Assembly: GCF_002845745.1 (NCBI RefSeq)
Contig: NZ_PIUM01000008.1
Coordinates: forward strand, 62,001 to 126,000
Source of the DNA: Telmatospirillum siberiense
GTDB taxonomy: Bacteria > Pseudomonadota > Alphaproteobacteria > Rhodospirillales > Magnetospirillaceae
Reading direction: 5' to 3'
Length of the DNA stretch: 64,000 nucleotides
The notes beneath the pieces are model-generated. The model was given only the letters and a program-made list of their open reading frames with translations. It was not told the origin of the DNA and ran no database searches. The position numbers and the translations under genes are program-made. This document shows, one piece after another, positions 8,827 to 39,692 of this stretch (the stretch's first letter is position 1; the number at the start of each line of letters is the position of its first letter).

Positions 8827-8836
8827 CACCAAATCA

Positions 8837-10322: not shown

Positions 10323-10391
10323 ATTCATGAGCGCACCTCATATGTCTATGCAAATCTAGACGGCTAATCGCCTGCAGTCTCTCCTGCTAAA
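10323..10391 (+). promoter_or_regulatory. Shared 69-bp motif, copy D, upstream of RND pump operon
   Basis: This copy is on the opposite strand: read from 10391 down, TTTAGCAG, 14 bases, GATTAG, 13 bases, CATAGACATATGAG, then TCATGAAT. The inversion keeps the same orientation relative to its own downstream gene, as in copies A-C. It ends about 215 bases before the proposed pump start. Confidence 0.65.
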
Positions 10392-10605
10392 TGTTCGGTA
10401 ACAGTCGGCGGTGAACCCTGCCGGCAAATGGGAGCCGACGAACAACGCTTCGTCGTCATTCACGTCTCAAGAATGTTGTGAAACCTCTGCCAGCTTTTCG
10501 CTATGGGCGAAAAAGGAATGGCGGACTGTTCGTAGGAGTGCGCCCCTTGCAGATGGTGACGTTAAACGATCGGCTTGCCGGCGGGCTCTGGTGGAGCTCT
10601 TGCAA

Positions 10606-16585: not shown

Positions 16586-18319
16586 ATGATCGTTTTCGAC
16601 AACGCCATCACGGAACAGTCTTCGGTATTCGCCGAACCAATCGGGATTATCCGCGCCGACAAGCAGGAAGAGGTTCTCCCCGCCGTTGCGGCCATGGCAT
16701 CGGCACTGGATAGGGGCGAATATCTGGCCGGCTTCTTCAGCTACGAACTTGGTTATGTGTTGGAAGACCGCTTGCTCCGGCTATTGCCGGAGCAACGGGG
16801 CATCCCGCTCCTGTGGTTCGAGATCTTCGCCGGGCCGGCGCAATATCATACCGGCGACACGCTGTGGCAGAAGGGCAAAGCTTATGCCGGCCCGATCCGC
16901 TGGGAATGGAAGAGGGCGGACTATGGCAGCCGCTTTGTCCGCGTCGCCGAATGGATCAAGGCCGGCGACATTTATCAGGCCAATCTCAGCATGCGCGGGC
17001 GCTTTCGTTTCATCGGCGACCCTCGCGCTCTCTTCCATGATCTTCGCAAGCATGCCGGTGCCGCCCACGGGGCCTACATCGATGCAAAAGAGTTTCAAAT
17101 CATCAGCGTCTCGCCGGAGCTCTTTTTCGAACTCGCTTCCGACGGAACGATAACGACGAGACCGATGAAGGGCAGCAAGGCTCGCGGCGAAGACGACGAG
17201 ACCGACCGGGCGGCGCGTGCCGAATTGGCTGCAAGCGAGAAGGATCGGGCGGAAAATCTTATGATCGTCGATCTGTTCCGCAACGATTTGACACGCATCG
17301 CCAAGGTCCCGAGCGTGCGGGTGCCCAGCCTGTTCGATATTGAGACCTATCCCACGATCCATCAGATGGTTTCGACCGTGACCGCGAAGATTCCGCCTCG
17401 GTTGGGCATCGATCGGATCCTCGCCGCCCTGTTCCCCAGCGGTTCCGTCACCGGCGCGCCGAAAATACGCGCCATGGAGATCATCGCCGCGACGGAGCAA
17501 AGCCCGCGCGGCGCCTATTGTGGCGCCATTGGCCATTTCGCCCCCGATGGCAGCGCCTGTTTCAATGTCGCCATTCGGACCATGACCCTTTCGGACGGAT
17601 ACGGAGAGATCGGTGTCGGCGGGGCATTGGTCGCCGATTCGCAATGCGACGCCGAATATGAGGAATGCTTGCTCAAGGCGCGCTATTTTGAACGCGCGCG
17701 CCATCCGGTGGCGCTCATCGAAACCCTGCGTGGTCGCCACGGAATCGACCGACATCTCGACCGCATGCAAAACAGCGCGGCCTGGTTTGACATCCCCTTT
17801 GATCGGGCCACCGCTGAAAAGACGGCAGCCGCCGCCGGCGAGGGGCGGGTGAGACTCGTGCTCCAAGAGGACGGGTGCATATCCGTTTCCACCGGCAATT
17901 TGCCGGTAAGCCAGGACGTTTGGCATTTCCGGATTTCCACCCGCCGGGTGGACAGTTCGGACCCTTTCCTCCGCCATAAAACCGACTGGCGCGAGCTTTA
18001 TGATGAAGAGTTGCGGCTCTCCGGATGCGACGAGGTCCTGTTCCTGAACGAAAGAGACGAGATTTGCGAGGGAAGCCGCAGCAATGTCTTTTTGGTCATT
18101 GACGGGGCGTGGTTGACCCCAGCCGCCACGGCCGGACTCCTGAACGGCTGCCTGCGCGAGGAGATGCTGGCTTCCGGCCGCTGCCGGGAAGCGGTTCTGA
18201 GGATCGCGGATATCGAACGCTCGGAGCAAATATGGTTCGGAAACTCTCTCCGTGGATTGATCCGAGCAGAGCCCCAGGCCGCCATGGCCGGTTTTGGTGG
18301 CCATGGCCCGCCCGGATAA
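16586..18319 (+). CDS. pabBC: Bifunctional aminodeoxychorismate synthase component I / aminodeoxychorismate lyase
   Basis: This fused enzyme makes p-aminobenzoate for folate: the PabB half converts chorismate to 4-amino-4-deoxychorismate, and the PabC half eliminates pyruvate. PabB landmarks are FFSYELGYVLEDRL, SPELFFEL, TRPMKGSKARGEDDETD, NLMIVDLFRNDL and PSGSVTGAPKIRAMEII, up to about residue 355. The C-terminal 220 residues are a class IV aminotransferase-like lyase (IETLRGRHGIDRHLDRM, CEGSRSNVFLVIDGAWLTP, GLLNGCLREEML). The 577-residue length is normal for the fusion. The gene stands alone, 194 bases after the efflux operon. Confidence 0.92.
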   Translation: MIVFDNAITEQSSVFAEPIGIIRADKQEEVLPAVAAMASALDRGEYLAGFFSYELGYVLEDRLLRLLPEQRGIPLLWFEIFAGPAQYHTGDTLWQKGKAYAGPIRWEWKRADYGSRFVRVAEWIKAGDIYQANLSMRGRFRFIGDPRALFHDLRKHAGAAHGAYIDAKEFQIISVSPELFFELASDGTITTRPMKGSKARGEDDETDRAARAELAASEKDRAENLMIVDLFRNDLTRIAKVPSVRVPSLFDIETYPTIHQMVSTVTAKIPPRLGIDRILAALFPSGSVTGAPKIRAMEIIAATEQSPRGAYCGAIGHFAPDGSACFNVAIRTMTLSDGYGEIGVGGALVADSQCDAEYEECLLKARYFERARHPVALIETLRGRHGIDRHLDRMQNSAAWFDIPFDRATAEKTAAAAGEGRVRLVLQEDGCISVSTGNLPVSQDVWHFRISTRRVDSSDPFLRHKTDWRELYDEELRLSGCDEVLFLNERDEICEGSRSNVFLVIDGAWLTPAATAGLLNGCLREEMLASGRCREAVLRIADIERSEQIWFGNSLRGLIRAEPQAAMAGFGGHGPPG

Positions 18320-22521: not shown

Positions 22522-23517
22522 TCAGTCTCTTTTAGGCGCCAACTCGATGGCCTGCCTCAATGCTTCCAGCAGGCTGCGCTCGTCGGCGATGCCCTTGCCG
22601 GCGATATCGAAGGCGGTGCCATGATCGACGGAGGTACGCACCACCGGCAGTCCGACGGTGATGTTGACCCCGGCCTCGATCCCGAAAACCTTGATCGGTC
22701 CATGCCCCTGGTCATGGTACATGGCGACCACCAGATCGAAATCGCCACGGGCCGCCCGGAAGAAAAGCGTATCCGCCGGCAACGGCCCCTCGACCTTCCA
22801 GCCTTCGGCACGGGTGGCGGCGATCGCCGGCGCGATCTTTTCCGCCTCTTCGCCGTGGCCGAACAGGCCGTTCTCGCCGGCATGGGGATTGATGGCGCAG
22901 ACGCCGATGCGGGGATCGGCGATGCCCGCCTTGATCAGGGTCTCGTGGCCGCGCCGGATGGTCCGTTCCACCAGACCGGCGTTGATCCGGGCGATGGCAT
23001 CCAGGAGACCGATATGAGTGGTGACGTGAATCACCCTGAGCCGGGGGGCCGTCAGCATCATGGAGACTTCCGGCGTGCCGGTCAGGTGGGCCAGCAATTC
23101 GGTATGCCCGGGATAGCGATGACCCGCGGCATGCAGCGCCTCCTTACTGATCGGCGCCGTGCAGATGGCGTCGGCGCCCCCTTCCACCACCAGACGGCAG
23201 GCGCGTTCGATATAGCGATAGGCGGCCTCTCCGGCGACCGGCGAAACCGCACCGAACGGCAGATCGTCGGGGACCAACCCGAGATCGATCACATCGACGA
23301 TCCCCGATTTGAATTCGGCTTCATCCGGACGGGAAACGGCATGAACGTCGAGCGTCGAATCGACGATACGGGCCGCCGCTCTCAATCGATTGGCGTCGCC
23401 GACGACCAACGGCCGGCAGGCGTCATAAACCTCGCCATGGGCGAGACTCCGCATGATGATTTCCGGACCGACGCCGGCAGGATCTCCCATGGTGATGGCG
23501 ATGATGGGACGGGACAT
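22522..23517 (-). CDS. PdxA2-type 4-phosphate dehydrogenase (D-threonate/erythronate 4-phosphate)
   Basis: A 331-residue member of the PdxA family. PdxA itself oxidises 4-hydroxythreonine 4-phosphate in pyridoxal phosphate synthesis, while PdxA2 proteins encoded beside DUF1537 kinases oxidatively decarboxylate D-threonate or D-erythronate 4-phosphate to dihydroxyacetone phosphate. Landmarks are ITMGDPAGVGPEI at the start and metal-binding histidines in GHRYPGHTELL, NPHAGENGLFGHGEEA and MYHDQGHGPIKV. The ATG at 23517 follows AAGGAG. It lies 11 bases after the kinase gene, so the catabolic role is preferred over vitamin synthesis. Confidence 0.88.
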   Translation of the reverse strand: MSRPIIAITMGDPAGVGPEIIMRSLAHGEVYDACRPLVVGDANRLRAAARIVDSTLDVHAVSRPDEAEFKSGIVDVIDLGLVPDDLPFGAVSPVAGEAAYRYIERACRLVVEGGADAICTAPISKEALHAAGHRYPGHTELLAHLTGTPEVSMMLTAPRLRVIHVTTHIGLLDAIARINAGLVERTIRRGHETLIKAGIADPRIGVCAINPHAGENGLFGHGEEAEKIAPAIAATRAEGWKVEGPLPADTLFFRAARGDFDLVVAMYHDQGHGPIKVFGIEAGVNITVGLPVVRTSVDHGTAFDIAGKGIADERSLLEALRQAIELAPKRD

Positions 23518-23528
23518 GCTGCTCTCCT

Positions 23529-24764
23529 TCAGCTTTTCAAGCGATCCAGGCACCGGCGAAGCGTCATCGCCTCGCCGAAGCCACCGGCCTTCGTGACAAC
23601 GGGAATAGAGTATTCGGACAAGGTCATCCCAAGGGGCACCCCCGGCTCGACGTCATCGAGCAGGCGAATACCCTGGACACCCATGCGAGACAGAACCGCG
23701 CAAGCCGTATCGCCGCCGGTGGCGACCAGAGCTCCGATCGAGGGAGCCAGCGGCCCCACCATCTCGGCCAGACGGCCAACGAGATCGGCCCCCTTGGCAA
23801 GGTCCGGGCTTTCCGCCAGGGCGATTTCCAACAAAACGTCACGCCCCGCGAGCAATCCCCAGGAAAGCTTTTCCACGGCGGCTTCCCACGAAGCGTGGCC
23901 CGGACCGGCGAACAGGGTCTCGGGCGCCACCGGCACATGAACCACCCGCTGCTCCGCGACCAGCAAAGCGGATTGCGCCCTTGAAGCTTCCGCCAAACTG
24001 CCGATCACCATCAGAACGCCGCCATGACGGGGCGGAAGCGGCGGATGAGGGGCGGCAACCGGTTTCTCGATGGCCGCCAAGGCACCCGCCAATCCGGCGG
24101 AACCGACCCAAACCAGTTCTCGCGATAGACCAAGAGCGGCGACGGCCACCACGGCGAGATCGCGATCCTCGCTACAATCGCAAACGACGGCGGCCACTCC
24201 CCGCTGATCCGCCGCCCGCATGCAATCCCGCACCCTTTCGGCTCCGGAGCGAACGACATCGAGAGCGACCACGTCGGCCGTCAGTCCCGCGCCGGCAAGA
24301 ATGGCGGGCAAATGGGCACTGGGATAGCTATGGTCCCGAGCCCAAAGGGGGGTCTTTTCCAGCGGGGTATCGCCGACCATCACACGCCCCCCCACGCTGA
24401 CCCGACCGGCGGCGGGAAAAGCCGGAGCCAACACCACCAGGGGCGGCCGGCGATCATCCGAAACAGGCAGGACCGCCAATTGCGCGGCCAATTCGGCAAA
24501 TGGCTGGCCCCTGAGCGTGGAATCGATCTTTTTATAAAGATGCATTCCCGGCCGCCAATGATCGGCCAGTGCGGCAACCTGGCGTTCCGCCGCCTCGCCT
24601 TCGCCAAAACGGCGACTATCGACATCGATCGACAAAACGGTGGCGCATGGCTTCGCTCCGGGTCCCCAGGCGACGATCGCGTCGAGACCACGCTTGGCGA
24701 AGGCAATGGCGCAGTCGGCGGCGCCAGTCAGATCGTCTGCCAGGATCAGCCAGTGCGATGGCAT
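23529..24764 (-). CDS. DUF1537 four-carbon acid sugar kinase (DtnK/OtnK type)
   Basis: A 411-residue kinase that phosphorylates four-carbon sugar acids such as D-threonate at C4. The N-terminal substrate domain starts LILADDLTGAADCAIAFAKRG, the family hallmark, with SIDVDSR and KKIDSTLRG further in. The C-terminal nucleotide domain has ALVATGGDTACAVLSRMGV and LDDVEPGVPLG. Pairing with a PdxA2 gene predicts kinase then dehydrogenase action on D-threonate or a related acid; which epimer cannot be told from sequence. Operator-like repeats lie upstream at 24828-24907. Confidence 0.9.
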   Translation of the reverse strand: MPSHWLILADDLTGAADCAIAFAKRGLDAIVAWGPGAKPCATVLSIDVDSRRFGEGEAAERQVAALADHWRPGMHLYKKIDSTLRGQPFAELAAQLAVLPVSDDRRPPLVVLAPAFPAAGRVSVGGRVMVGDTPLEKTPLWARDHSYPSAHLPAILAGAGLTADVVALDVVRSGAERVRDCMRAADQRGVAAVVCDCSEDRDLAVVAVAALGLSRELVWVGSAGLAGALAAIEKPVAAPHPPLPPRHGGVLMVIGSLAEASRAQSALLVAEQRVVHVPVAPETLFAGPGHASWEAAVEKLSWGLLAGRDVLLEIALAESPDLAKGADLVGRLAEMVGPLAPSIGALVATGGDTACAVLSRMGVQGIRLLDDVEPGVPLGMTLSEYSIPVVTKAGGFGEAMTLRRCLDRLKS

Positions 24765-24827
24765 AAACTCGCCCTTTCAACGACGGCACCGATATTGGAC
24801 ATGAACAGGATCGGACCTTCGCAAGAT

Positions 24828-24907
24828 ATGCGTAAAATGCGCAAAAAGCCATTAGGAACAAGATAACTTCGTGCATATAGATATCATTTTTGCGCATATC
24901 ACGCAAA
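24828..24907. promoter_or_regulatory. Repeat-rich operator region upstream of four-carbon acid kinase
   Basis: TGCGCAAAAA at 24838-24847 is exactly mirrored by TTTTTGCGCA at 24887-24896. Within the left part ATGCG recurs nine bases apart (24828, 24837); within the right, TTTGCG (24889-24894) faces CGCAAA (24902-24907). The arrangement resembles a pair of repressor sites about 50 bases apart allowing looping. It lies 64-145 bases upstream of the kinase ATG. Confidence 0.45.
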
Positions 24908-25049
24908 TTTTATCGTCAGACCATTCCCCTCTTCGCTTCCCCTCCCATCGCCGCCGTCATGACCGGCAGGAGAGTTAGGCTTCGTCAAACAGCCCGATTC
25001 TGTTATGGTCCGAACGCCATCCCCGCCCGCCTGCCTTTTGGAGCCCGCG

Positions 25050-25439
25050 ATGACCTTTCTGCTCAACCTTGTCTGGCTGATTTTCGGCGGAGGCCTTTTG
25101 GCAGCTTTCGGCTGGGCAGTCTCCGCGCTCCTGATGGCGATCAGCATCATCGGCCTTCCCTGGACGCCGGCGGCGCTGCGAGTCGCCGACTATACACTGC
25201 TCCCCTTCGGCCGCAGGATCGAGACAGCTCCCACCCCGGTCAGCCTGGCCGGCAATATCATCTGGTTCATCCTGGCAGGTTGGTGGCTGGCGCTCGGACA
25301 TCTTCTCCTCGCCATCGGCTTGGCCGTAACGATCATCGGCATTCCGTTCGCCTGGGCGCATCTCAAACTGGCTTATATGACCCTGGCCCCGGTTGGAACG
25401 ACGGTGGTTTCCACCCCTCCCCGACGCCGGGCATTCTGA
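25050..25439 (+). CDS. YccF domain-containing inner-membrane protein
   Basis: A 129-residue protein with two copies of the YccF domain (LLNLVWLIFGGGLLAAFGW ... IGLPW and AGNIIWFILAGWWLALGHL ... IGIPFAWAHLKLA), each a pair of membrane segments followed by a Pro-containing turn. YccF-type proteins are small membrane proteins of unknown role. The ATG at 25050 has TGGAG nine bases upstream. It stands alone, divergent from the four-carbon acid kinase. Confidence 0.85.
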   Translation: MTFLLNLVWLIFGGGLLAAFGWAVSALLMAISIIGLPWTPAALRVADYTLLPFGRRIETAPTPVSLAGNIIWFILAGWWLALGHLLLAIGLAVTIIGIPFAWAHLKLAYMTLAPVGTTVVSTPPRRRAF

Positions 25440-25713
25440 CCCGCGGGGCATTTGCCCCCCCCAACTGACGAAATCGATCCATCCCCATCATCGCGCGTTG
25501 TCGTTAAGCCACCGTCCGCGCGCGGATCGCGCAATCGCGCCCGTTCCGCACACCCCGGCATGAGTAAACTAAATTTCAATATTAGTTAAAAAAATCTGAA
25601 GATTCACCGCCCGGTTTCATAGCATCGAACGTTACACCATCACGCCCGCTCTCGAGAGCGCGGACTCACCCTTTTTGCGATGGAAACGGGCCAGACCCGT
25701 CAAGGGGGTCAGA
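25440..25713. other. Intergenic region upstream of flagellin
   Basis: The 274 bases include an AT-rich patch with AACTAA (25567-25572) facing TTAGTT (25582-25587). I looked for a sigma-28 or sigma-54 promoter before the flagellin gene and saw no convincing match. No gene is visible. Confidence 0.4.
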
Positions 25714-26544
25714 ATGCCGGTGATTTCAACGAACAACGCGGCAAATTCCGCGCTGAACTACCTGAACAACAACTCCAACAAAGAAACCAATCTTCTCTCC
25801 CAATTGGCCAGCGGCTCCCGTATCGTCCAGGCATCCGACGATGCCGCCGGTCTCGCCATCGGTACCCAGCTGCAGGCCAGCGTCACCGTTTATAACCAGA
25901 ATGCGACCAACGTCGCCCAGGGCACGGCCATCCTGCAGTCGGCCGACGGCGCCCTGGCGCAGATCAGCAACGTCCTCCAGCGCATGATGGCGCTGGCCAC
26001 CGAGGCCGCGTCCGGCCAGGTCACCAACAGCCAGCGTTCCGAAGACATCAATACGGAATACACGCAGCTCAAGAGCGAAATCAGCAGCATCGTCAGCAGC
26101 ACCACCTATGCCGGCAAGACCCTGCTCTCCGGCTCCTTCCTCAGCAACGTGAAATTCCTCGTCGGCACCCTGTCGTCCAACTTCATCACCATTTCGGTAG
26201 CCACGGTTTCCGTCGCCGGCCTGCTGGGTTCTACCGGCTCGACGGTGAGCTCGGCGGCCACGGCGTTGCAGGCGATCAGCAAGATCAACTCGGCGATCAA
26301 TACGATCACCAAGGATCGCGCCAAGATCGGTGCCTATGAATCTCAGTTCTCTTTCAGCAGCCAGGTCATCGCCACCAACACGCAAAACATCACGGCGGCC
26401 GCCTCGGTGGTTCTCGACGCCGACGTTGCCTCGGTGAAGTCGCAGTTGTCGTCGATGGACGTGAAAACACAAGCCTCGGTCGCCGCCTTGACCCAGGCCT
26501 CGCAATTGCCGTCGGAACTCTTGAAGTTGATCCAAGCGGCATAA
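25714..26544 (+). CDS. Flagellin
   Basis: The filament subunit, 276 residues. The conserved N-terminal D0/D1 region is present (NNAANSALNYLNNNSNKETNLLSQLASGSRI broken over residues 6-36, then ASDDAAGLAIGTQL and ISNVLQRMMALATEAASG), as is the C-terminal D1/D0 region (INTITKDRAKIGAYESQF, then ASVAALTQASQLPSELLKLIQ). The variable centre is short, as in many Alphaproteobacteria. The ATG at 25714 follows AAGGGGG by 6 bases. No other flagellar filament or export genes are beside it, and it interrupts the sugar-acid cluster. Confidence 0.93.
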   Translation: MPVISTNNAANSALNYLNNNSNKETNLLSQLASGSRIVQASDDAAGLAIGTQLQASVTVYNQNATNVAQGTAILQSADGALAQISNVLQRMMALATEAASGQVTNSQRSEDINTEYTQLKSEISSIVSSTTYAGKTLLSGSFLSNVKFLVGTLSSNFITISVATVSVAGLLGSTGSTVSSAATALQAISKINSAINTITKDRAKIGAYESQFSFSSQVIATNTQNITAAASVVLDADVASVKSQLSSMDVKTQASVAALTQASQLPSELLKLIQAA

Positions 26545-26593
26545 GGGCCTGGAGCCCTCCGACCAGCCTCCCGAAACTGGAGGCAAAAAATTC

Positions 26594-26632
26594 CGCCGGT
26601 GGCGCTTGTCATCTAAAATGACAGGCGCCACC
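26594..26632. terminator. Long hairpin after flagellin
   Basis: CCGGTGGCGC-T-TGTCAT pairs with ATGACA-G-GCGCCACCGG around a CTAAA loop, starting about 50 bases after the flagellin stop. It lacks a T-run on the plus strand but is the obvious 3' structure for the flagellin mRNA. Confidence 0.6.
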
Positions 26633-26792
26633 GGCACCGGCCGGCCTGGCCCGAGCAGTTTCATCGCAGCGTATCCCGTTTCAGTGACAGCCGTCATATA
26701 CGTCCCCCGCCCGCTCTTCCAAGATCGCCCCAGCGGTCGGCTTCCCCAGTTGGATTTCCGGCCAGAGCCTCCTGACAAGAGCCGGTGTTCCG

Positions 26793-27350
26793 ATGCCCAA
26801 ATACCCGCATTTCATATGGCGTTTCGCCCTGTTCGCCCTTCTTGCCATCGCCTGCGCCCTGACCACACCGCGCACTGCGGCCGCCAGCCCGATCAATTGT
26901 GTGCAGTATGTCGAACACACCACCCAGATGGCCTTGCGGGGTAATGCCTGGCAATGGTGGGAAGGCGCCGCCGACCGCTACGCCCGCGGACGCCAGCCCT
27001 GGCCGAAAGCCGTTATGGTCTTCGCCAAAAGCGGCCGCCTGCGGTTCGGCCATCTGGCGGTGGTCACCCGCCAGATCGATCGCCGAACCGTTCTCGTCGA
27101 TCACGCCAACTGGTCTCCAGTGGGTGGCCGGCGCGGCTCCATCGAACATGGCGTTCGCATTGTCGACGTCTCGGCGGCCAACGACTGGAGTCAGGTTCGG
27201 GTATGGTACGGACCGTCCGCCGATGTCGGGCAGACGGTCTATGCGGTGCGGGGATTCGTCTATCCCTGGCGCGCGGCGCGTCTCGTCAAATCCTGGGAAA
27301 CCGACCCGCTCAGCAATCACATAGAACAGATCGACGCGCTAACACCATGA
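26793..27350 (+). CDS. Exported CHAP-domain cysteine hydrolase
   Basis: A 185-residue protein with a cleavable signal peptide (hydrophobic 12-25, cleavage near AAAS) and a CHAP (NlpC/P60-like) amidase or endopeptidase fold. The likely catalytic residues are Cys36 in NCVQYV and His87 in GHLAVV, followed by DHANW, the third-position polar residue. Such enzymes cleave peptidoglycan peptides or amides in the periplasm. It is flanked by flagellin and the sugar-acid cluster; no partner is visible. Confidence 0.85.
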   Translation: MPKYPHFIWRFALFALLAIACALTTPRTAAASPINCVQYVEHTTQMALRGNAWQWWEGAADRYARGRQPWPKAVMVFAKSGRLRFGHLAVVTRQIDRRTVLVDHANWSPVGGRRGSIEHGVRIVDVSAANDWSQVRVWYGPSADVGQTVYAVRGFVYPWRAARLVKSWETDPLSNHIEQIDALTP

Positions 27351-27413
27351 TCGGTGCTGGAAGCAAGCCGATCATGGCGTCAGTTCCGGATAATTTCCGA
27401 CCGAAAACTGCTA

Positions 27414-28379
27414 TCAGCCCCTGACGAAATACCGAGGATGAACCTCCTCGTTTCTCAGCAAGGCGAGCACATTGCGCACCGTCTGTAAGGAAACCTCGCG
27501 GCGAGCCTCCTCGGTCACGCCGCCGATGTGCGGCGAAACGATGACATTGGGAAGGTTCCACAAGGGATTGTCGGCGGCCGGCGGTTCCGGCGCGAAACTG
27601 TCCAACCCCGCCCCGGCGATAGTCCCGGCCTCCAAGGCCTTGACCAGCGCCGGTTCATCGACGACTTCACCGCGGGCGGTATTGATCAGAAACGAGCCCG
27701 GCTTCATCAGACCCAATTCCCGGGCACCAATCAGGTTCCGCGTCTGCTCGGTCAAGGGACAATGCAGACTGACAACATCGCAGTCGGCCAAAAGAGTTTC
27801 CAATTCGGCGATGCGCGGCAGATCCGGAGCAAACGCATCGTCGGGGGCAAACGGGTCATAGGCGACGACGCTCATACCGATGGCCCGCACCATGCCGGCC
27901 AAAGCCCGGCCGATCATGCCCAGCCCCACCAAGCCAAGCTTGCGTCCACGCAACTCATGTCCCTGATAGGACTTTTTCTCCCAACCGCCGCCACGCACGA
28001 ATGCGTCCTGACGTCGCAGGTCCTTGATCAGGGCCAGCATCAAGGCCAGCGCATGCTCGGCGACCGAATGGGCATTGCAGCCGGTCGCGGCGAGAACCGG
28101 CAAGCCGAGGCGTTTGGCGGCCGCCACATCGATATCGTTGGTCCCGGCGCCATGCTTGGCGATCACCTTGAGCCGCGGCGAGGCTTTCATGATCGCTTCG
28201 TCCACCCGGTCGATCAGACGGACGATGACGGCATCCGCCTGATGGCGGGCCAACAATGCGATCACCTCGTCCTTTTTCGGATAGGGTCCGGTCGCAATGG
28301 AGGTGACACCGGCCGAACGCATCATCTCCTCGCCTTCCTGGGCGACGGGTCCGCCCAGGCTCACCACAGTGAACGTCAT
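27414..28379 (-). CDS. D-isomer-specific 2-hydroxyacid dehydrogenase (SerA-like)
   Basis: A 321-residue NAD-dependent oxidoreductase. The Rossmann motif GLGMIG is at 152-157, and the active-site set is the arginine in NTARGEVVD, the glutamate in DSFAPEPP and the histidine in SPHIGG. The N-terminal segment KHGAGTNDIDVAAAKRLG is typical of the phosphoglycerate dehydrogenase branch. It is the last gene of the MFS-lyase-iron ADH block and probably oxidises or reduces a hydroxyacid intermediate of that pathway; serine biosynthesis is less likely in this context. Confidence 0.87.
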   Translation of the reverse strand: MTFTVVSLGGPVAQEGEEMMRSAGVTSIATGPYPKKDEVIALLARHQADAVIVRLIDRVDEAIMKASPRLKVIAKHGAGTNDIDVAAAKRLGLPVLAATGCNAHSVAEHALALMLALIKDLRRQDAFVRGGGWEKKSYQGHELRGRKLGLVGLGMIGRALAGMVRAIGMSVVAYDPFAPDDAFAPDLPRIAELETLLADCDVVSLHCPLTEQTRNLIGARELGLMKPGSFLINTARGEVVDEPALVKALEAGTIAGAGLDSFAPEPPAADNPLWNLPNVIVSPHIGGVTEEARREVSLQTVRNVLALLRNEEVHPRYFVRG

Positions 28380-28424
28380 TGTACTCTCCTAAAAAGCGAT
28401 CTTTTCGGACGTGGCGGCATCGGC

Positions 28425-29711
28425 CTATTTCCTGCTCTCGATGGGCTCGACCTTGGTCAGCAGGAAAGCGTAATTGACGATTCCCAGCACCCCGAGCCCC
28501 GCCGAAAACATCAAGGCGGCCGTGAAGGATCCGGTCTTGGCGACAATGAAGCCGGTAACGATGGGCCCCACGACTCCGCCGAAATTCGAAACCATGTTTT
28601 GCAAGCCGGCCACCGTCGAAGCCATGTTGCGCGGGGCCACATCTCCCGGCAGCGCCCACACCTGAGAGGCGGCGATGGTGGTGCCCGCCTTGGCGACGCA
28701 CAGCAGCGCGACCGTGAAAATCACGGAATGGGCGAAAGGGGCCAATCCGATGCATAAGGCCATCGTCAGGCCGCCCACCAGGAACAGCTTACGGGTCGCG
28801 GTCAGGGAAAGAAGCTTGCTATGAACGACGCGATCGGAAAGCCAGCCGGCGAGAATTTCGAAAACCAATCCCGACAGCAAAGGTAGCGAAGCGACAAAGC
28901 CCATGGTCAAAAGCCCCATGCCATGTTCTTTGACGAGATAGGTGGGAAGCCAAGTGATAAAGAAATACGAGATATAATTGATCGTAAAGAAGCCGAGACA
29001 CATCGCCCATATGTTACGATAGCGAAGAAGCTCGTACCATTTCATGGGGATGGTCTTGTCCGTTCCATGGTGACGGATCTGCCCACTTCTAATGTAATCA
29101 ACCTCTTCTTTATTAATGTATTTATGGGTCTCCGGGGTTTCCGAAAAGAACCACCACCAGACAACGCTCCAAATCAACCCCACCACACCGATTGCGACGA
29201 AGGTCAGCCGCCAATCGAGAAGGGAAATCAACCAGACGATGAGCGGCATGGCCACGGCGCCGCCGAATTTCGAGGCGCTGTCGAACAGTCCGGAGATCGT
29301 CGCCCGCTCCCTGTCGGGAAACCATTTCGAAGCGATCCCGGCATTGCTGGGATAAGCCCCGGCCTCGCCGACGCCGAGCGCGACGCGAAGACCGAAAAGC
29401 GAAAGAAATCCAGTGGCAAGGCCAGTTGCCGAGGTCGCCAGAGACCACCAGGCGACGGCGCCGCCCAGACCGAACTTCTGGCCGAATCTGTCGGAAAACC
29501 ATCCTGCCGGGATCTGCAACATGGCATATGACCAGAAGAATGCCGACATGACCAAACCCATCATGTCGATGGGAATGTCCAAATCCTTGATGAGACGGGG
29601 CGCCGCAGCGGAAAGAACCGTGCGGTCAACGTAATTGATGGCGATGGCCAGCCACATCAGGGCCGCCACCCACCACCGGATGTTGGTCATTTTCGTCGAA
29701 GCAGTCGCCAT
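28425..29711 (-). CDS. MFS transporter, anion:cation symporter (ACS) family
   Basis: A 428-residue, 12-segment permease. Family marks are NYVDRTVLSAAAPRL in the first helix, PAGWFSDRFGQKFGLG (MFS loop motif), GVGEAGAYPSNAGIASKWF and GDVAPRNMASTVAG. ACS members such as GudP, ExuT and DgoT import sugar acids with protons. Its position between a hydroxyacid dehydrogenase and a DapA-type lyase supports uptake of the sugar acid that the cluster degrades. The ATG at 29711 gives a short leader; a start eight codons later is also possible. Confidence 0.9.
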   Translation of the reverse strand: MATASTKMTNIRWWVAALMWLAIAINYVDRTVLSAAAPRLIKDLDIPIDMMGLVMSAFFWSYAMLQIPAGWFSDRFGQKFGLGGAVAWWSLATSATGLATGFLSLFGLRVALGVGEAGAYPSNAGIASKWFPDRERATISGLFDSASKFGGAVAMPLIVWLISLLDWRLTFVAIGVVGLIWSVVWWWFFSETPETHKYINKEEVDYIRSGQIRHHGTDKTIPMKWYELLRYRNIWAMCLGFFTINYISYFFITWLPTYLVKEHGMGLLTMGFVASLPLLSGLVFEILAGWLSDRVVHSKLLSLTATRKLFLVGGLTMALCIGLAPFAHSVIFTVALLCVAKAGTTIAASQVWALPGDVAPRNMASTVAGLQNMVSNFGGVVGPIVTGFIVAKTGSFTAALMFSAGLGVLGIVNYAFLLTKVEPIESRK

Positions 29712-29841
29712 GTTTTCCTCCCGCTTTTCTTGGTTCCGGCCTTGGCGGCTTGATATGCGAATTTGCGGATGCTGGCGGTCCGATCCCGACGCTTGCCTCC
29801 CAAGCGTCGGGTGAATCGGCCCGCCAACTCATTGATCCGCT

Positions 29842-30732
29842 TTAGCTGGCGGCTTCGACGTACCGCTTGGAAATTTCGGCGATCTTGCGGTCGACCTCCT
29901 CGGCAATCAGTACCGGAGCGCGGCTCCAGCCGACATCGGGCATGGCGTGGCACAAAGCGCGCTTGACCATCGCCGGCGGGAAACCCAGGGCATAGAGTTC
30001 CTTGCGCAGCGCGCTGAAACGGGTCTGATGGGCTTCCGCCGCCGTCAGATCGCCGCGAACGAAGGCGGAATGGATGCCGTTGACCGTCACCGGGCAGACG
30101 TTTCCGAGGCCTGAAATGCACCCCGCCGCCCCATTGCGCAAGCCGTGCAGGATGAGAGAATCAGGCCCCACCAGGACGTCGAAATCCGAACGATCGCGGG
30201 CGATTTCCAGGAAGGCGTCGAGGCTTTCCTGCGATCCCGCGCTGTCCTTGATGCCGATGATATTGGGATGATCCGCCAGCACGCGGGCCGTGGCGGGCTC
30301 CAGCGTGTTTCCGGTCCGGGCCGGGATGTTGTAGAGATAGACCGGCACGCTCAGCGCGTCGGCGACCTTCCGGTAATGATCGATCAGTTCGGCCTGCGAG
30401 CAGGCGATGAAGGACGGCGTGATCGCCGATACGGCCTTGACCCCCAGGCGGGCGATCACCTTGCCGAGAGCGATGGTCTGGCTGGTGGAGATTTCACCGA
30501 TATGGCCCAGCACCGGGACCTTCCCTTGAGCCGCCTCGACACAGGTTTCGGCGACACGAACCTTTTCCTCGAACGACAGTGCATAGAATTCACCGTTGGT
30601 GCCGGCGAAAAACACACCGTTGCCGGCCGCGGCCTGACGGTTCACCTGACGGCGCAAAGCCGTGGTATCGACACGCTCCTCCTTGTCGAAAGGAGTGACG
30701 ATGGCAATGAAGGGGCCTGTAATCTTGGTCAT
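29842..30732 (-). CDS. DapA/NanA-superfamily class I lyase or dehydratase
   Basis: A 296-residue TIM-barrel protein of the dihydrodipicolinate synthase family. The Schiff-base lysine is Lys162 in GIKDSAGS and the tyrosine is Tyr134 in YLYNIPARTG; the carboxylate-binding loop is GTNGEF (44-49). In catabolic clusters these enzymes cleave or dehydrate 2-keto-3-deoxy acids rather than make dihydrodipicolinate. Placement between a sugar-acid transporter and an iron alcohol dehydrogenase under a FadR-type regulator suggests such a 2-keto acid aldolase or dehydratase. Confidence 0.88.
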   Translation of the reverse strand: MTKITGPFIAIVTPFDKEERVDTTALRRQVNRQAAAGNGVFFAGTNGEFYALSFEEKVRVAETCVEAAQGKVPVLGHIGEISTSQTIALGKVIARLGVKAVSAITPSFIACSQAELIDHYRKVADALSVPVYLYNIPARTGNTLEPATARVLADHPNIIGIKDSAGSQESLDAFLEIARDRSDFDVLVGPDSLILHGLRNGAAGCISGLGNVCPVTVNGIHSAFVRGDLTAAEAHQTRFSALRKELYALGFPPAMVKRALCHAMPDVGWSRAPVLIAEEVDRKIAEISKRYVEAAS

Positions 30733-30792
30733 TTTCTCACCATTCCGGGTTCTGGATTAAAGAGGCGTCGGCCATGTGGGCTGGTCGGCACA

Positions 30793-31929
30793 TCAAAGAG
30801 CGGCGCGATACATCGCGAGGATGTCGTCACGCCCAACATCGCGCGGATTATTGTCGAGCAGCCGGCGGATAGCGTGCGCCTCGTCGGCCATGGCAGGTAG
30901 ATCCTCGGCGGACACACCGAACGCCGACAGGTGCATTTCGCATCCCAGGCCGGCGCACCAACGGGAAGCGAAGTCGAACACGGCGGACGACTCTTTCGCG
31001 GCCGGCAATCCGAGAGCGGCCAGAACGGCGGCGGTCCGATCGGCAACGACGGGCGCATTGAAGGCCAGGACATGCGGAAAGATCAGCGCGTTGGCCGCGC
31101 CATGCGCCACATGATAACGGGTGCCCAAGGGATAAGCGACGGCATGGCCGGCGGCGGTGTTGACCGGACCCAGGCAAAAACCGCCATAAAGCGAGGCCAG
31201 CGACAAACCGGCCCGCGCCTCGCGGTCGCCACCGTCGGCGATGGCGCGGGGAAGCCAATGACCGACCAGCCGGATACCTTCAAGGGCAAAGAGATCGATG
31301 GCCGGATGGGCCTTCTTGTTGGTGAAGGCCTCGACGCAATGGGCCAAGGCGTCGACACCGGTGGCCGCGGTTACCGCGGGCGGCACGCTCAACGTCAGAT
31401 CGGGATCGACCACGGCGAGATCGGCCAGCATATGGACGCTCTGCACCGCCATCTTGTTCTGCGTCACCGGATCGGTAACCAGGGCGCGGGTTCCCGCTTC
31501 GCTGCCCGTCCCCGAGGTGGTCGGCACCTGAATGAGAACCGCCCGCCTGCCGGCCGTCACCTTTTCGGCCCCGACGACATCGGCGATCGTCTGACCGCTG
31601 CCCGGCAGAACGGCGGCCAGTTTGGCGAGATCCATGCTGCTGCCGCCACCGAAACCGACCACCACCTGGGCATCGGCGGTCTTCGCGGCGGCCAACGCCA
31701 TTTCCAGATTGGCGGCATCAGGCTCGGGCTGCACATCGGAGAACACGCTGACCATTCCGGGGAGATCCAAAAGATCGACCCGGCCGGCATTGAAGGCATC
31801 CGCCACCACCAGGACGCGGGAGAACCCCCGCTCGCGCACCCAGCGCCCGACCATGGAAACAGAACCCGAGCCGAATTCGATATGGCGAGGGCGAGTCAGG
31901 TCGATGGAACGGGTCAGAGCGCTCATCAT
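30793..31929 (-). CDS. Iron-containing (group III) alcohol dehydrogenase
   Basis: A 378-residue metal-dependent dehydrogenase. The nucleotide motif is VVGFGGGSSMDLAK; PTTSGTGSEA and the metal ligands in GVDALAHCVEAF (Asp, His), GHAVAYPLG (His) and YHVAHG (His) are intact. Group III enzymes include hydroxyacid-oxoacid and glycerol-type dehydrogenases and maleylacetate reductase; the exact substrate is not evident. It is the first gene of the minus-strand catabolic block and is divergent from the GntR regulator, so it is probably controlled directly by it. Confidence 0.9.
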   Translation of the reverse strand: MMSALTRSIDLTRPRHIEFGSGSVSMVGRWVRERGFSRVLVVADAFNAGRVDLLDLPGMVSVFSDVQPEPDAANLEMALAAAKTADAQVVVGFGGGSSMDLAKLAAVLPGSGQTIADVVGAEKVTAGRRAVLIQVPTTSGTGSEAGTRALVTDPVTQNKMAVQSVHMLADLAVVDPDLTLSVPPAVTAATGVDALAHCVEAFTNKKAHPAIDLFALEGIRLVGHWLPRAIADGGDREARAGLSLASLYGGFCLGPVNTAAGHAVAYPLGTRYHVAHGAANALIFPHVLAFNAPVVADRTAAVLAALGLPAAKESSAVFDFASRWCAGLGCEMHLSAFGVSAEDLPAMADEAHAIRRLLDNNPRDVGRDDILAMYRAAL

Positions 31930-32023
31930 GTTGTCACTTTTCTGTCAGACGGTGGGGCGAGCCGGGAAACGCATCCCTTGCGGGTTTTTAAGACAAACCG
32001 ATTGGAGCGGAAAAGCGGCAACC

Positions 32024-32143
32024 TGTCAACATGTTGTAATGTTGTAATGCAGCATTGGAAATGGCCCAAACAGGCGATCCCTCGACGGCACGTTCAAGCG
32101 ATTGCCCCGGATGCCGACTATTGCAAGTTGACAACATCACAAG
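32024..32143. promoter_or_regulatory. Putative GntR/FadR operators between iron ADH and regulator
   Basis: Two clusters of related sites: around 32024-32049 TGTCAACATGTTG followed by TTGTAATGTTGTAA-like repeats, and around 32126-32136 AGTTGACAACA, a short dyad with GTTG/CAAC arms. Both lie between the iron ADH start (31929, minus) and the regulator start (32193, plus), where an autoregulated FadR-type protein would bind. Confidence 0.45.
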
Positions 32144-32192
32144 CTCCGACCGTATGATGCCTCGTAATGGAATTGGTTCGGTGGTGAGGCGA

Positions 32193-32939
32193 ATGGTTGA
32201 CTCCATGGCGAATGAAATCGGCGCCGCGGAAAATAGTCAGGGATACAAAACCCCGCTCGTCCAAAGGGTCTATCAGCAGCTATGGACGAAGATCAGCGCG
32301 GGGGACTATGAGCTCGGACAGAAATTGCCGGGAGAACATGAACTGGCCTCGCAATTTCTCGTTTCACGCCCCATCGTGCGCGAAGCGCTCGGTCGCCTGA
32401 GAGAGGAAGGCCTGATCTATTCGCGGCGCGGGGCCGGCAGTTTCGTCAAGGTCCGCTCGCAGAACCGGCCTCTGGGCTTTGCCCCGGTCGAAACCATTGC
32501 CGATATTCAACGCTGTTACGAGTTCCGCCTGACGATCGAGCCGGATCATGCCTATTGCGCCGCCCTGCGCCGTAACCAGGCGGCGCTCGACGCCATCGCC
32601 GTGGCGCTTGACCTGCTGCACGACGCGACCGAGGCCCATCGCCACCGGGAAGATGCGGACTTCGCCTTCCATTTCGCCATCGCCGAAGCGACGAACAATC
32701 ATTATTACGTCTCGTCCATGCAGGCGCTGAAAGACCACATCTCGGTCGGCATGAAATTTCACGGCGTCTCGCTGATGGGGCCGCAATCGGGCCTGGCCGG
32801 CGTTTTCAGCGAGCATCAGGCCATCTTCGAAGCCATTCGCGATCGAGACGCGGAAAAGGCGAAGACCGAGATGCGCGACCATCTGGCAGGCTCTCGGGAA
32901 CGCGTGTTCGAAGGCAAGGAACTGGATCTGTCGCTGTAA
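32193..32939 (+). CDS. GntR-family regulator, FadR subfamily
   Basis: A 248-residue repressor with an N-terminal winged helix (VQRVYQQLWTKISAGDYELG, KLPGEHELASQFLVSRPIVREALGRLREEGLIYSRRGAGSFV split here) and a C-terminal all-helical FCD ligand domain (CYEFRLTIEPDHAY, DADFAFHFAIAEATNNHYY-like ADFAFHFAIAEAT, GVFSEHQAIFEAI). FCD proteins bind small carboxylic acids, often the substrate or an intermediate of the adjacent pathway. The ATG at 32193 has GAGG close upstream; the frame is open to 32055 without homology. It probably represses the divergent iron ADH block. Confidence 0.9.
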   Translation: MVDSMANEIGAAENSQGYKTPLVQRVYQQLWTKISAGDYELGQKLPGEHELASQFLVSRPIVREALGRLREEGLIYSRRGAGSFVKVRSQNRPLGFAPVETIADIQRCYEFRLTIEPDHAYCAALRRNQAALDAIAVALDLLHDATEAHRHREDADFAFHFAIAEATNNHYYVSSMQALKDHISVGMKFHGVSLMGPQSGLAGVFSEHQAIFEAIRDRDAEKAKTEMRDHLAGSRERVFEGKELDLSL

Positions 32940-36992: not shown

Positions 36993-39692
36993 ATGAGCGT
37001 GCGCAACCTGAACTTCCTGTTCCGCCCGAAATCGGTCGCCGTCATCGGGGCGACTGAACGGGAAAAGGCCGTTGGCACGATCGTCATGCGCAATCTGATG
37101 CAAGGCGGCTTTTCCGGCCCGATCATGCCGATCAATCCCAAACAGCAGGCGGTGGCGGGCGTCCTGGCCTATCCCGACGTCGACAGCCTGCCCGTGGTTC
37201 CCGATCTCGGCGTCATCTGCGGCCCGGCCGACGAAGTGCCGCAACAGATCGAAAGACTGGGCGCCCGCGGGACTCGCGCCGCCATTATCATGACCGGCGG
37301 GCTGTCCACCACGCCGGGGCTCAATGGACGATCCCTGCATGCCAATATGATGGACGCGGCCCGGCGTCACGGCATGCGGGTGCTGGGATCGGACAGTCTG
37401 GGCCTGATGGTCCCCGCCGTCGGACTGAATGCCAGCTATGCCCATCAAAGCGCCCTCCCCGGCCGGCTCGCCTTCGTTTCGCAATCGGGTGCGCTTTGCA
37501 ATGCGGTGCTGGACTGGGCCCGGCCCAAGGGCATCGGCTTTTCCCATTTCATCTCGCTGGGCGAATCGGCCGATGTCGACTTCGGCGATCTTCTCGATTA
37601 CCTGGGGTCCGATCCGTCGACCCGGGCGATCCTTCTGTACATCGAATCGATCCGCCAACGCCGGAACTTCATGTCCGCCGCCCGCGCCGCCGCCCGCAAC
37701 AAGCCGGTCCTCGCCATCAAGGCCGGCCGCAGGGCGGAAGGCGCCAAGGCGGCGGCATCGCATACCGGAGCCCTCGCCGGTACCGATGCCGTCTATGACG
37801 CCGCCCTGCGCCGCGCCGGCATGCTCCGGGTCTATGATCTCGACGAGATGTTCACCGCCGTCGAAACCTTGTCCCGATCAAAGCCGACGCGGGCGACCAA
37901 GCTCGCGGTTCTGACCAATGGCGGCGGTATCGGCGTCATGGCGGTCGACGAACTGATCGAGATTGGCGGTGAGTTGGCCGAACTCAGCCCGGCCACTATC
38001 GAGAAATTGAATACCGCGCTGCCCTCCTGGTCGCGGTCAAATCCGGTGCAGATCGGCAATGCCGACGGCGACCGCTATATCAAGGCACTGGACGTTCTGC
38101 TCGAAGCCGAAGAGGTCGATTCCGTGCTCATCATGCACGCGCCGACCGCACTCACCTCGGCCAGCGAAATTGCCGAGCAAGTGATCAAATCGGTCAAGGC
38201 CCACCGCGCCAATGTGATGACCTGCTGGGTCGGGCAGGAACAGGTCGGCCCGGCCCGGCGCCTGCTGCGCGAGGCGGGCATTCCGACGTTTGAGACACCC
38301 GGCGCCGCTGTCCACGCCTTCATGCATCTGGTGAACTATCGCCGAAACCAGGACATGCTGATGGAGACGCCCGCCTCCGCCCTGGCCGATTTCACGCCGG
38401 AGACCGCCAACGCCCGCCTAGTGGTGGAAACGGCGCTGGCCACCGGCAACACCATCCTGAGCGAGCCCGAGGCGAAAGCCATCCTCACCGCCTACGGCAT
38501 TCCGACGGTGGAAACCCACATCGCCCGCACCCCCGCCGAAGCCAGTCGGCTGGCCAGCGAAATCGGCGGTGCGGTGGCTTTGAAGATCCTCTCCGCCGAT
38601 ATTGCGCACAAATCCGACGTCGGCGGAGTCATGCTCAACCTGCCCGGCCCCTTCGAGGTGGAAAAGGCCGCCAACCTGATGTTGGAAAAGGTCGCGGGGA
38701 AGATGCCGGAAGCGCAGATCCAGGGCTTCACCGTCCAACGCATGGCCCGCCGTCCGGGAGCGCAGGAAATCATCATCGGCGTGACCACCGACCCGATCTT
38801 CGGACCGGTGATCATGTTCGGCCAGGGTGGGGTGGCCGTCGAGGTCATCAACGACTCCGCCATCGGACTTCCCCCGTTGAACATGACACTTGCCCGCGAA
38901 CTGGTCTTCAGGACACGCGTCTCCAAGCTGCTGCTGGGATACCGGGATCGTCCCGCCGCCGATCTCGACGCCATCTGCCTGTCGTTGATGAAAATCTCGC
39001 AATTGATCATCGACATTCCCGAGATCGTCGAATTGGACATCAACCCCCTGTTCGCCGATGCCGAGGGGGTTCTGGCGCTCGATGCCCGCATCCGGATCAC
39101 GGCCACCGCGTTCGGTCCCGACCGGATGGCGATCCGGCCCTACCCCAAGTCGCTTGAAGAAACGCTGCTGCTCACCGATGGCAGAGAAGTCCTCGTCAGG
39201 CCGATCCGGCCCGAGGACGAACCGTCGCACCATGTGTTCGTCTCGAAGCAGACGCCGGAAGACATCCGCTTCCGCTTTTTCGGACTGGTCGGCGAATTGC
39301 CGCATTCGGAAATGGCCCGACTGACCCAGATCGACTACGACCGCGAGATGGCGTTCATCGCCGTCCTGCATGATGACGGCGTCGAGGGAGAAACCCTGGG
39401 CGTGGTCAGGACCGTCAGTGACCCCGACAACGAACGCGCCGAATTCGCCGTCATGGTCAGATCCGATTTGAAGGGAAGCGGACTGGGCCGCAAGCTCATG
39501 ATGAAAATGATCGATTACTGCCGCGCCCGGGGGACCGGACAGATCGTCGGCCAGATCCTTACGGACAACACGCGAATGTTGAAATTCGTCGAAAGCCTGG
39601 GCTTCAAGCGTCTGCGGTACGTCGAAGGCGACATCATCGAGGTCGCTCTCGACCTCAGGGCAACGATGGGTCCGCAGGCCGAAGCAACATGA
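36993..39692 (+). CDS. Pat-type protein lysine acetyltransferase (acyl-CoA synthetase-like / GNAT fusion)
   Basis: A 899-residue fusion. Residues about 1-460 form the CoA-binding and ligase-like part of NDP-forming acyl-CoA synthetases (FRPKSVAVIGATEREKAVG, SQSGALCNAVLDWA, ASHTGALAGTDAVYDAALR). About 475-700 is an ATP-grasp domain (EPEAKAILTAYGIPTVETH, ALKILSADIAHKSDVGGV). The C-terminal 170 residues are a GNAT domain (VLVRPIRPEDEPSHHVF, AEFAVMVRSDLKGSGLGRKLM). This is the layout of Salmonella Pat / E. coli PatZ, which acetylates and inactivates acetyl-CoA synthetase. It is monocistronic after a 260-base gap. Confidence 0.93.
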   Translation: MSVRNLNFLFRPKSVAVIGATEREKAVGTIVMRNLMQGGFSGPIMPINPKQQAVAGVLAYPDVDSLPVVPDLGVICGPADEVPQQIERLGARGTRAAIIMTGGLSTTPGLNGRSLHANMMDAARRHGMRVLGSDSLGLMVPAVGLNASYAHQSALPGRLAFVSQSGALCNAVLDWARPKGIGFSHFISLGESADVDFGDLLDYLGSDPSTRAILLYIESIRQRRNFMSAARAAARNKPVLAIKAGRRAEGAKAAASHTGALAGTDAVYDAALRRAGMLRVYDLDEMFTAVETLSRSKPTRATKLAVLTNGGGIGVMAVDELIEIGGELAELSPATIEKLNTALPSWSRSNPVQIGNADGDRYIKALDVLLEAEEVDSVLIMHAPTALTSASEIAEQVIKSVKAHRANVMTCWVGQEQVGPARRLLREAGIPTFETPGAAVHAFMHLVNYRRNQDMLMETPASALADFTPETANARLVVETALATGNTILSEPEAKAILTAYGIPTVETHIARTPAEASRLASEIGGAVALKILSADIAHKSDVGGVMLNLPGPFEVEKAANLMLEKVAGKMPEAQIQGFTVQRMARRPGAQEIIIGVTTDPIFGPVIMFGQGGVAVEVINDSAIGLPPLNMTLARELVFRTRVSKLLLGYRDRPAADLDAICLSLMKISQLIIDIPEIVELDINPLFADAEGVLALDARIRITATAFGPDRMAIRPYPKSLEETLLLTDGREVLVRPIRPEDEPSHHVFVSKQTPEDIRFRFFGLVGELPHSEMARLTQIDYDREMAFIAVLHDDGVEGETLGVVRTVSDPDNERAEFAVMVRSDLKGSGLGRKLMMKMIDYCRARGTGQIVGQILTDNTRMLKFVESLGFKRLRYVEGDIIEVALDLRATMGPQAEAT

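Follow-up and report, generated by a model that had tools for sequence, protein, structure and literature searches.

One catabolic route in two pieces? A proposed pathway for a seven-carbon sugar acid in Telmatospirillum siberiense and its relatives

Introduction

A stretch of 64,000 nucleotides from Telmatospirillum siberiense (positions 62,001 to 126,000 of contig NZ_PIUM01000008.1, assembly GCF_002845745.1; hereafter the window, in whose numbering positions are given) carries two groups of catabolic genes, and their proximity raises the question of whether they serve one pathway or two. The first group consists of a DUF1537 kinase and a PdxA2-type dehydrogenase, a combination known from the catabolism of D-threonate by DtnK (DUF1537) and PdxA2 (cited in PMC10971088). 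The second comprises genes for a D-2-hydroxyacid dehydrogenase (2HADH), an importer of the major facilitator superfamily (MFS), a DapA/NanA-superfamily lyase, an iron-containing alcohol dehydrogenase (Fe-ADH) and a FadR-type regulator. Three genes of other kinds lie between the groups.

We propose that the two groups most likely encode one catabolic route in two pieces. We further see about an even chance that this route breaks down a C7 acid, for which 3-deoxy-D-lyxo-2-heptulosarate (Dha) or its C4 epimer is the best candidate, to pyruvate, dihydroxyacetone phosphate (DHAP) and CO2, as the gene families and neighborhoods would suggest. Dha is a seven-carbon sialic acid analogue and occurs in plants only in rhamnogalacturonan II (RG-II) of pectin.

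Linkage of the four core genes

A genome collection was scanned with the window lyase alone as the seed, and 61 loci were recovered. Their lyases are 54-82% identical to that of the window in 34 loci (18 from enterobacteria and eight from Azospirillum) and at most 43% identical in the other 27. The lyase, Fe-ADH, DUF1537 kinase and PdxA genes occur together in 33 of the 34 close-lyase loci when each gene must be covered over at least 70% of its length, and in 31 when a single unbroken match is required for each. The locus outside the 33, L022, is a contig of 7.3 kb that has integrases on one side. Among the 27 distant-lyase loci, by comparison, any of the three partners appears in only one, L069, which is an Enterobacter version of the same cluster whose kinase and lyase matches are in pieces and which was counted in the distant set. 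When the ten of these 27 loci that measure less than 10 kb are set aside, partners are again present in one of the remaining 17. Loci from the plasmid, whole-genome and E. coli searches stand outside the 34, and the cross-locus gene comparison left out the short duplicate loci L001-L011.

Judged by gene neighborhoods, the linkage of the four core genes is strong. It also reflects more than common descent, because non-orthologous proteins fill the same slots. Between enterobacteria and alphaproteobacteria, the Fe-ADHs of this slot are about 30% identical, the kinases about 28-30% and the PdxAs 42-49%, while the regulator of a cluster may be of the DeoR, FadR or IclR type. The first-pass annotation had reasoned that the enzymes beyond the kinase and PdxA2 imply either a second pathway or an extended one, and the neighborhood survey, with its 33 of 34 linked loci, supports the extended route. 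The same linkage rules out two independent pathways as the leading reading.

Annotated records hold the complete set in Azospirillum B510, A. brasilense and E. coli A42. Methylobacterium holds it with a second type of lyase, and Klebsiella holds it with an unannotated Fe-ADH that was matched in two pieces. Pantoea PA13, R. mucosa, Pleomorphomonas and Pseudoroseomonas lack at least one core gene within the stretches compared. In Pantoea ananatis PA13 (L084 5375-6827), a kinase remnant to which 16% of the query was matched lies between the PdxA and Fe-ADH genes. The lyase gene of the E. coli type is present in 1043 of 5426 complete E. coli genomes, or about a fifth. The island of strain A42 (L096 2681-11660) lies between glnS and nagE and carries genes for a DeoR regulator, D-threonate 4-phosphate dehydrogenase, dtnK, Fe-ADH, the lyase, TerC, a sialidase family protein, YhcH and an SLC13 permease.

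The halves are not always found together, and this bears on the alternative that a D-threonate operon and a separate locus for a 2-keto-3-deoxy acid are unrelated neighbors that lie close by chance. At first look across 99 genomes (own genome included), the halves appear disjoint: the lyase is found in four (G000, G019, G064 and G088; E 1e-40) and the window-type kinase in three (G000, G002 and G049; E 1e-30). Yet the lyase-bearing relatives hold other kinase lineages nearby. In G049 and G002, window-type kinase/PdxA pairs occur but the Fe-ADH half does not, as both genomes lack Fe-ADH and lyase at the cut-offs used (the G002 kinase is a fragment cut by a contig end), and in R. haemaphysalidis the window-type pair and Fe-ADH are on different plasmids. 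The annotation had proposed that halves in unrelated places in relatives, together with no shared induction, would speak against a joint locus. Such a separation does occur for some window-type pairs, but the four genes are together in 33 of 34 loci. Moreover, the window-type kinase/PdxA2 lineage lies 3-5 kb from Fe-ADH in Roseomonas gilardii, where the kinase matches in two pieces, and in Pseudoroseomonas, in a stretch without the lyase; in G019, a window-type PdxA is about 2 kb from Fe-ADH.

Chance proximity would also fit the different evolutionary origins of the two halves and the different candidate operators described below. It fits poorly with non-orthologous parts recurring in the same slots of one cluster, and simple arithmetic puts the chance of a random insertion landing within 2.65 kb of the pair at about 0.1% in this 6.2 Mb genome. 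In addition, of the three DUF1537 genes in the genome, only that of the window has D-threonate kinase as its best NCBIfam model. We therefore consider two unrelated neighbors improbable, and continue with one route in two pieces.

The kinase/PdxA2 back end

The DUF1537 four-carbon acid sugar kinase gene (23529-24764, minus strand; PF07005/PF17042, SBD_N 149.4 and NBD_C 77.9 bits) is directly followed by the gene for a PdxA2-type 4-phospho-tetronate (decarboxylating) dehydrogenase (22522-23553, minus strand; PF04166, 363.9 bits). The genes overlap, occupying 24764-22522, and this succession of a DUF1537 kinase and a PdxA-family dehydrogenase is that of the D-threonate pathway.

The nature of the substrate is best read from enterobacterial members. 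In Pectobacterium, the cluster kinase aligns over 442 residues with PDB 4xfm/4xgj at 862 bits; these entries presumably represent the D-threonate kinase reported by Zhang et al. (2016). Both the Pectobacterium kinase (615.6 bits against a cut-off of 450) and its PdxA neighbor (682.4 against 583) pass the NCBIfam models of the D-threonate enzymes, as do those of E. coli A42 (534.1 and 680.3). On these grounds, the back end of the gene set would take a C4 acid.

Identification of the window kinase as OtnK was rejected, given its 97.7 bits against a cut-off of 350 for 3-oxo-tetronate kinase (NF043035). The OtnK and OiaK labels fit the genome's other two DUF1537 genes better. The kinase on contig C44 (L017) passes as a 3-oxo-tetronate kinase (625.8), and that on contig C26 (L018) is OiaK-like (3-oxo-isoapionate kinase, 455.9 with a cut-off of 700), with PdxA, DeoC aldolase and tripartite ATP-independent periplasmic (TRAP) transporter genes nearby. 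Apiose is another RG-II sugar.

The lyase

The lyase gene (29842-30732, minus strand) encodes a member of the dihydrodipicolinate synthase (DHDPS)/N-acetylneuraminate lyase (NAL) aldolase superfamily, with 195.0 bits to PF00701 (cut-off 22.1), a TIM barrel and a Schiff-base lysine, Lys162, that is invariant in 20 aligned sequences. The motif YNIPARTG, which contains Arg139, is present in all 35 sequences from the window and the 34 loci. Its counterpart in E. coli DapA is YNVPSRTG, and NanA and YagE are without that arginine in the alignment. The second substrate of DapA is a C4 semialdehyde acid, and in DHDPS the arginine binds its carboxylate group.

Two established identities were tried and rejected, namely biosynthetic DapA (TIGR00674, 183.7 bits below 206.15) and NanA (NF003164, 141.9 below 281; TIGR00683, 115.7 below 382). 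The predicted fold is closest to DapA (Z up to 39.0, rmsd 1.9, 291 aligned residues), with YagE and NAL structures within about 1.2 Z units. A second lyase subfamily (L085, L087, L089, L090, L091 and L130), about 27-32% identical to the window lyase where compared, is encoded beside the same Fe-ADH.

Proposed route and substrate

From the observed protein families and core linkage, we infer the following steps and Dha as the substrate. The MFS protein would import the acid, and 2HADH would oxidize its C2 position, forming a 2-keto-3-deoxy-heptulosarate for which Dha or its C4 epimer is the likeliest identity. The lyase, as the proposed retro-aldolase for this compound, would cut between C3 and C4 via a Schiff base to yield pyruvate and tartrate semialdehyde (D-threuronate), with the distal carboxylate held by Arg139, as by the corresponding arginine of DHDPS. 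Fe-ADH (30793-31929, minus strand; PF25137/PF00465) is the proposed reductase of tartrate semialdehyde to D-threonate; it matches 15 NCBIfam models, all below cut-off. The DUF1537 kinase would then form 4-phospho-D-threonate, and PdxA2 could perform the last step, oxidizing and decarboxylating this intermediate to DHAP. The net products would be pyruvate, DHAP and CO2.

Two considerations point to the substrate. Because the product of a pyruvate lyase must here become a C4 acid, the compound cleaved is expected to be a C7 diacid, and because a sialidase-fold protein and a relative of sialate anomerase accompany the core in related clusters, it is expected to resemble sialic acid. In Fischer projection, only two of the eight C4-C6 configurations yield D-threonate, which are D-lyxo (Dha) and D-xylo. 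No published catabolic route for Dha was found among the literature matches listed, in a search whose coverage leaves most subscription journals outside, and the matches listed for the kinase and the gene neighborhood likewise include no Dha route.

Tentatively, and with somewhat less assurance than would make it an even bet, we suggest that the gene set is an undescribed Dha route with either sialidase-like/YhcH or 2HADH/MFS front ends, assembled more than once from non-orthologous parts and distributed among alphaproteobacteria and enterobacteria, many of them plant-associated. If so, bacteria would gain a way to use a sugar acid of RG-II, and an orphan neighborhood of enterobacteria, soil alphaproteobacteria and many E. 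coli strains would become a testable four-enzyme route.

Interchangeable front ends

In the window, the core is accompanied by genes for 2HADH (27414-28379, minus strand; PF02826, 214.8 bits, with a marginal NAD_binding_2 match of 21.4 bits against the Pfam cut-off of 21) and an importer of the anion:cation symporter (ACS) type (28425-29711, minus strand), which resembles D-galactonate transporters (TIGR00893, 325.3 bits, cut-off 395). Many related clusters instead hold genes for a BNR_2 protein (database label exo-alpha-sialidase), a YhcH/DUF386 protein and a short-chain dehydrogenase/reductase (SDR). Sialidases make up nearly all of the 50 matches listed for the predicted BNR_2 model (mean pLDDT 81.6; best Z 36.7, rmsd 2.6, 312 aligned residues). 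No match to the Dha hydrolase family GH143 was recognized among the 50 listed, which is no evidence that such a match is absent. E. coli YhcH opens the ring of N-acetylneuraminate (Neu5Ac) and so feeds NanA the open form, according to PMC8141875. The cluster YhcH proteins fall below the cut-off of 160 for the anomerase equivalog NF040884, at 96.3 bits and, for a gene on contig C33 of this genome, 124.0 bits.

Contig C33 also encodes a BNR_2 relative that is 67% identical. The C33 row (L112, C33:85500-105499, 7813-12806) is unlinked to the window and holds genes for an IclR regulator, a sodium symporter, BNR_2, YhcH and triosephosphate isomerase. In G001, a genome of the same genus, a relative of this isomerase (77%) is encoded in a stretch with Fe-ADH, PdxA, kinase, IclR and a lyase of the second type. 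This proximity to core genes suggests that the C33 row is tied to the route, and an isomerase there fits DHAP as an end product. We propose that the route would be served, in the relatives and at C33, by the sialidase-fold protein (probably cytosolic), the YhcH-type anomerase and triosephosphate isomerase.

The two kinds of front end exclude each other. Among 33 complete loci, none has both 2HADH and BNR_2, ten have only 2HADH, 22 have only BNR_2 and one has neither (Fisher p 1.2e-7, with kinship ignored). This count ignored matches below 45% identity for BNR_2, SDR and MFS, below 40% for sodium:solute symporters and below 30% for Fe-ADH and 2HADH, and locus L041, with a 39% BNR-like protein, was therefore scored as having neither. 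The ten 2HADH loci have an ACS-type MFS gene in five cases and TctC in five; relatives of the window MFS at 71-78% identity lie beside 2HADH in five loci. More generally, transporters interchange among clusters (TctABC, CitMHS/SLC13, ACS types and sodium symporters, with ATP-binding cassette types in those of A. brasilense and Pleomorphomonas), and the acid or diacid transporters beside the core are of the TctABC, CitMHS/SLC13 and ACS types.

Because 2HADH and an ACS transporter stand in for the sialidase set, the compound entering by the window system may differ. We suggest that 2HADH provides a second entry for a 2-hydroxy form (a 3-deoxy-heptarate), whose oxidation would lead to that same 2-keto acid, and we regard this as the least secure step of the scheme. 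We also propose that NADH from this step would balance that used by Fe-ADH.

The front ends also bring to the fore the possibility that the same extended route to a tetronate serves another acid, such as another 3-deoxy-2-heptulosarate, or a heptarate or 3-deoxy-heptarate admitted via 2HADH or an enolase-type dehydratase, possibly ending in D-erythronate. The mutual exclusion of 2HADH/MFS and the sialidase-like gene is consistent with this idea, as are an enolase-superfamily gene after the lyase in L022, a lactate-racemase-like gene after 2HADH in G019 and the scores of the window kinase and PdxA2, which lie below the D-threonate cut-offs. However, lyases of one subfamily stand behind both front ends, which therefore probably converge on one 2-keto acid. 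On this evidence we judge a substrate other than Dha to be somewhat unlikely.

The sialidase fold and the YhcH-type anomerase, together with a lyase of the NanA/DapA superfamily, might likewise suggest a longer ulosonate of the 3-deoxy-D-manno-octulosonate (KDO) or sialic acid type, with Fe-ADH acting on a C5-C6 aldehyde and the kinase and PdxA2 on a side product. Cleavage of KDO yields arabinose and that of Neu5Ac yields N-acetylmannosamine (ManNAc), the latter needing NanK/NanE. Neither arabinose nor ManNAc as a product would explain a D-threonate kinase, and the lyase is far below both NanA cut-offs, so we regard this explanation as highly improbable. A C7 acid such as Dha continues to be our preferred substrate.

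Azospirillum clusters (B510, L081 11726-13210) add a fumarylacetoacetate-hydrolase-family gene and SDR genes. Perhaps these additions form an oxidative branch that cuts a 2,4-diketo acid instead.

Points that weigh against the proposed route

Several observations weigh against the proposal. With 18 of the 34 loci from enterobacteria and eight from Azospirillum, the linkage counts are not independent and therefore overstate the evidence. No kinase or PdxA gene accompanies the lyase in R. mucosa (L083) or in L022, the kinase of Pantoea PA13 corresponds to only the 16% of the query mentioned above, and the Pleomorphomonas stretch is without a kinase.

The window kinase reaches only 197.6 of the 450 bits set for its best model, D-threonate kinase NF047819, and PdxA2 only 342.8 of the 583 set for D-threonate 4-phosphate dehydrogenase NF002891. 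The Azospirillum pair is also below these cut-offs (114.5 for the kinase and 288.7 for PdxA). For the window pair, D-threonate is therefore the nearest label rather than an assignment, and D-erythronate is a possible substrate outside enterobacteria.

Neither overall identity (28-29%) nor fold distinguishes the lyase from DapA, NanA and YagE. The second lyase subfamily, found in the equivalent slot of Roseomonas, Methylobacterium, Pleomorphomonas and G001, has YHIPQ or YHIPP and is without the arginine, and the L053 lyase (43%) has YNIPANTG. At the front end, the window 2HADH would be superfluous where Dha itself is imported. No signal peptide was visible by eye in nine BNR_2 sequences, which is why we take the protein to be probably cytosolic. 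Finally, an operator common to the kinase upstream region and the gap between the FadR-type and Fe-ADH genes was looked for in the window, and none was found.

How the window set became split

A cluster of Bradyrhizobium (L030) has the order FadR, kinase, PdxA, Fe-ADH, lyase, MFS, 2HADH. The window has this order minus the kinase and PdxA genes, which sit 2.65 kb beyond 2HADH and are of a different lineage. The window PdxA is about 45% identical to the Azospirillum type and 73-87% identical to those of G019, Roseomonas, G049 and G002. In the same-genus genome G004, yccF, flagellin, GGDEF, gph and acyl-CoA synthetase genes stand in a row, in a 20 kb stretch with no match to the window's catabolic genes. 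G002 has a contig that terminates in a solute-binding gene, PdxA and kinase and a second that terminates in flagellin and gph. If these contigs are neighbors, as the window order suggests, then the kinase/PdxA pair would be older here than the lyase cassette.

Taken together, the gene orders suggest that the lyase cassette apparently entered after the flagellin gene, beside a resident kinase/PdxA pair, which would account for a set in two pieces. Loss of genes in the relatives, instead of arrival of a cassette, seems less likely.

Candidate regulatory elements and other features

Upstream of the kinase gene, a 22-base element occurs twice in inverted orientation, with an exact copy at 24826-24847 (minus strand) and one with three mismatches at 24887-24908 (plus strand); none is expected from 100 shuffles. 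Its core has exact matches in the 6.2 Mb genome only at these two sites, and three further sites with one mismatch lie elsewhere. These copies are candidate operators. The divergent region at 31930-32198 contains words of the TTGTCA/GTTGACAAC type that are candidate FadR operators, and the longest word that it has in common with the kinase upstream region is nine bases. An operator common to the window halves and the C33 locus was also looked for, and none was found. The annotation had given each part its own operators. The words do differ between the two regions, while their status as operators is itself only putative. The kinase/PdxA pairs in G049, R. haemaphysalidis and Pseudoroseomonas adjoin a DeoR gene, and none was seen beside the window pair.

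The regulator gene (32055-32939, plus strand) belongs to the FadR subfamily of GntR regulators, with a GntR DNA-binding domain (PF00392, 70.8 bits) and an FCD domain (PF07729, 79.1 bits), both above their cut-offs. It is divergent from the single leftward row formed by the 2HADH, MFS, lyase and Fe-ADH genes. The protein shares 73% identity with its counterpart in the Azospirillum cluster, and because this homology begins only at residue 65 of the TTG frame starting at 32055, translation probably starts at the ATG at 32199.

Pfam and NCBIfam searches placed all ten genes of the earlier list where, and in the families in which, they had been described, including the yccF, flagellin and CHAP genes between the two parts, all three on the plus strand (25005-27350). 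We read these as bystanders because yccF and flagellin are kept together in G004, whose 20 kb stretch matches no catabolic gene. Elsewhere in the window, positions 16586-18319 seem to encode a PabB/PabC-like fusion, and 36993-39692 a fusion of an NDP-forming acyl-CoA synthetase with an acetyltransferase domain, both as judged by eye.

Comparison with known catabolic systems

Sialic acid (nan) catabolism with the YhcH/NanQ anomerase has in common with the gene set a NanA/DapA-superfamily lyase, and related clusters and C33 add YhcH and the sialidase fold. It differs in that the back end here would take a C4 acid and the lyase is below the NanA cut-offs. Neither NanK nor NanE is annotated in the related-cluster stretches examined. 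For the E. coli nan-9 island, PMC10088187 describes a different gene content.

DapA has the fold, the Schiff-base lysine and the YNxPxRTG motif in common with the window lyase. The latter is nonetheless below the equivalog cut-off, is about 28% identical to E. coli DapA and is encoded in a catabolic cluster.

The galactarate/glucarate route employs GarL aldolase, GarR reductase and GarK kinase and follows the same logic, with retro-aldol cleavage to pyruvate and a semialdehyde acid, reduction and phosphorylation. That route handles six carbons, whereas the one proposed here would handle seven. The window proteins also belong to other families than GarL, GarR and GarK, as the lyase is of the DapA superfamily, the reductase is an Fe-ADH and the kinase is of the DUF1537 family.

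The D-threonate route itself has the same two-gene back end in the same order, and its models are passed by the Pectobacterium and E. coli cluster genes, although the window enzymes are below the equivalog cut-offs. That route reportedly starts from free D-threonate (Zhang et al., 2016, PNAS), whereas here a lyase, Fe-ADH and front end precede it. If the proposed steps are correct, they would explain the source of D-threonate for the DtnK/PdxA2 route.

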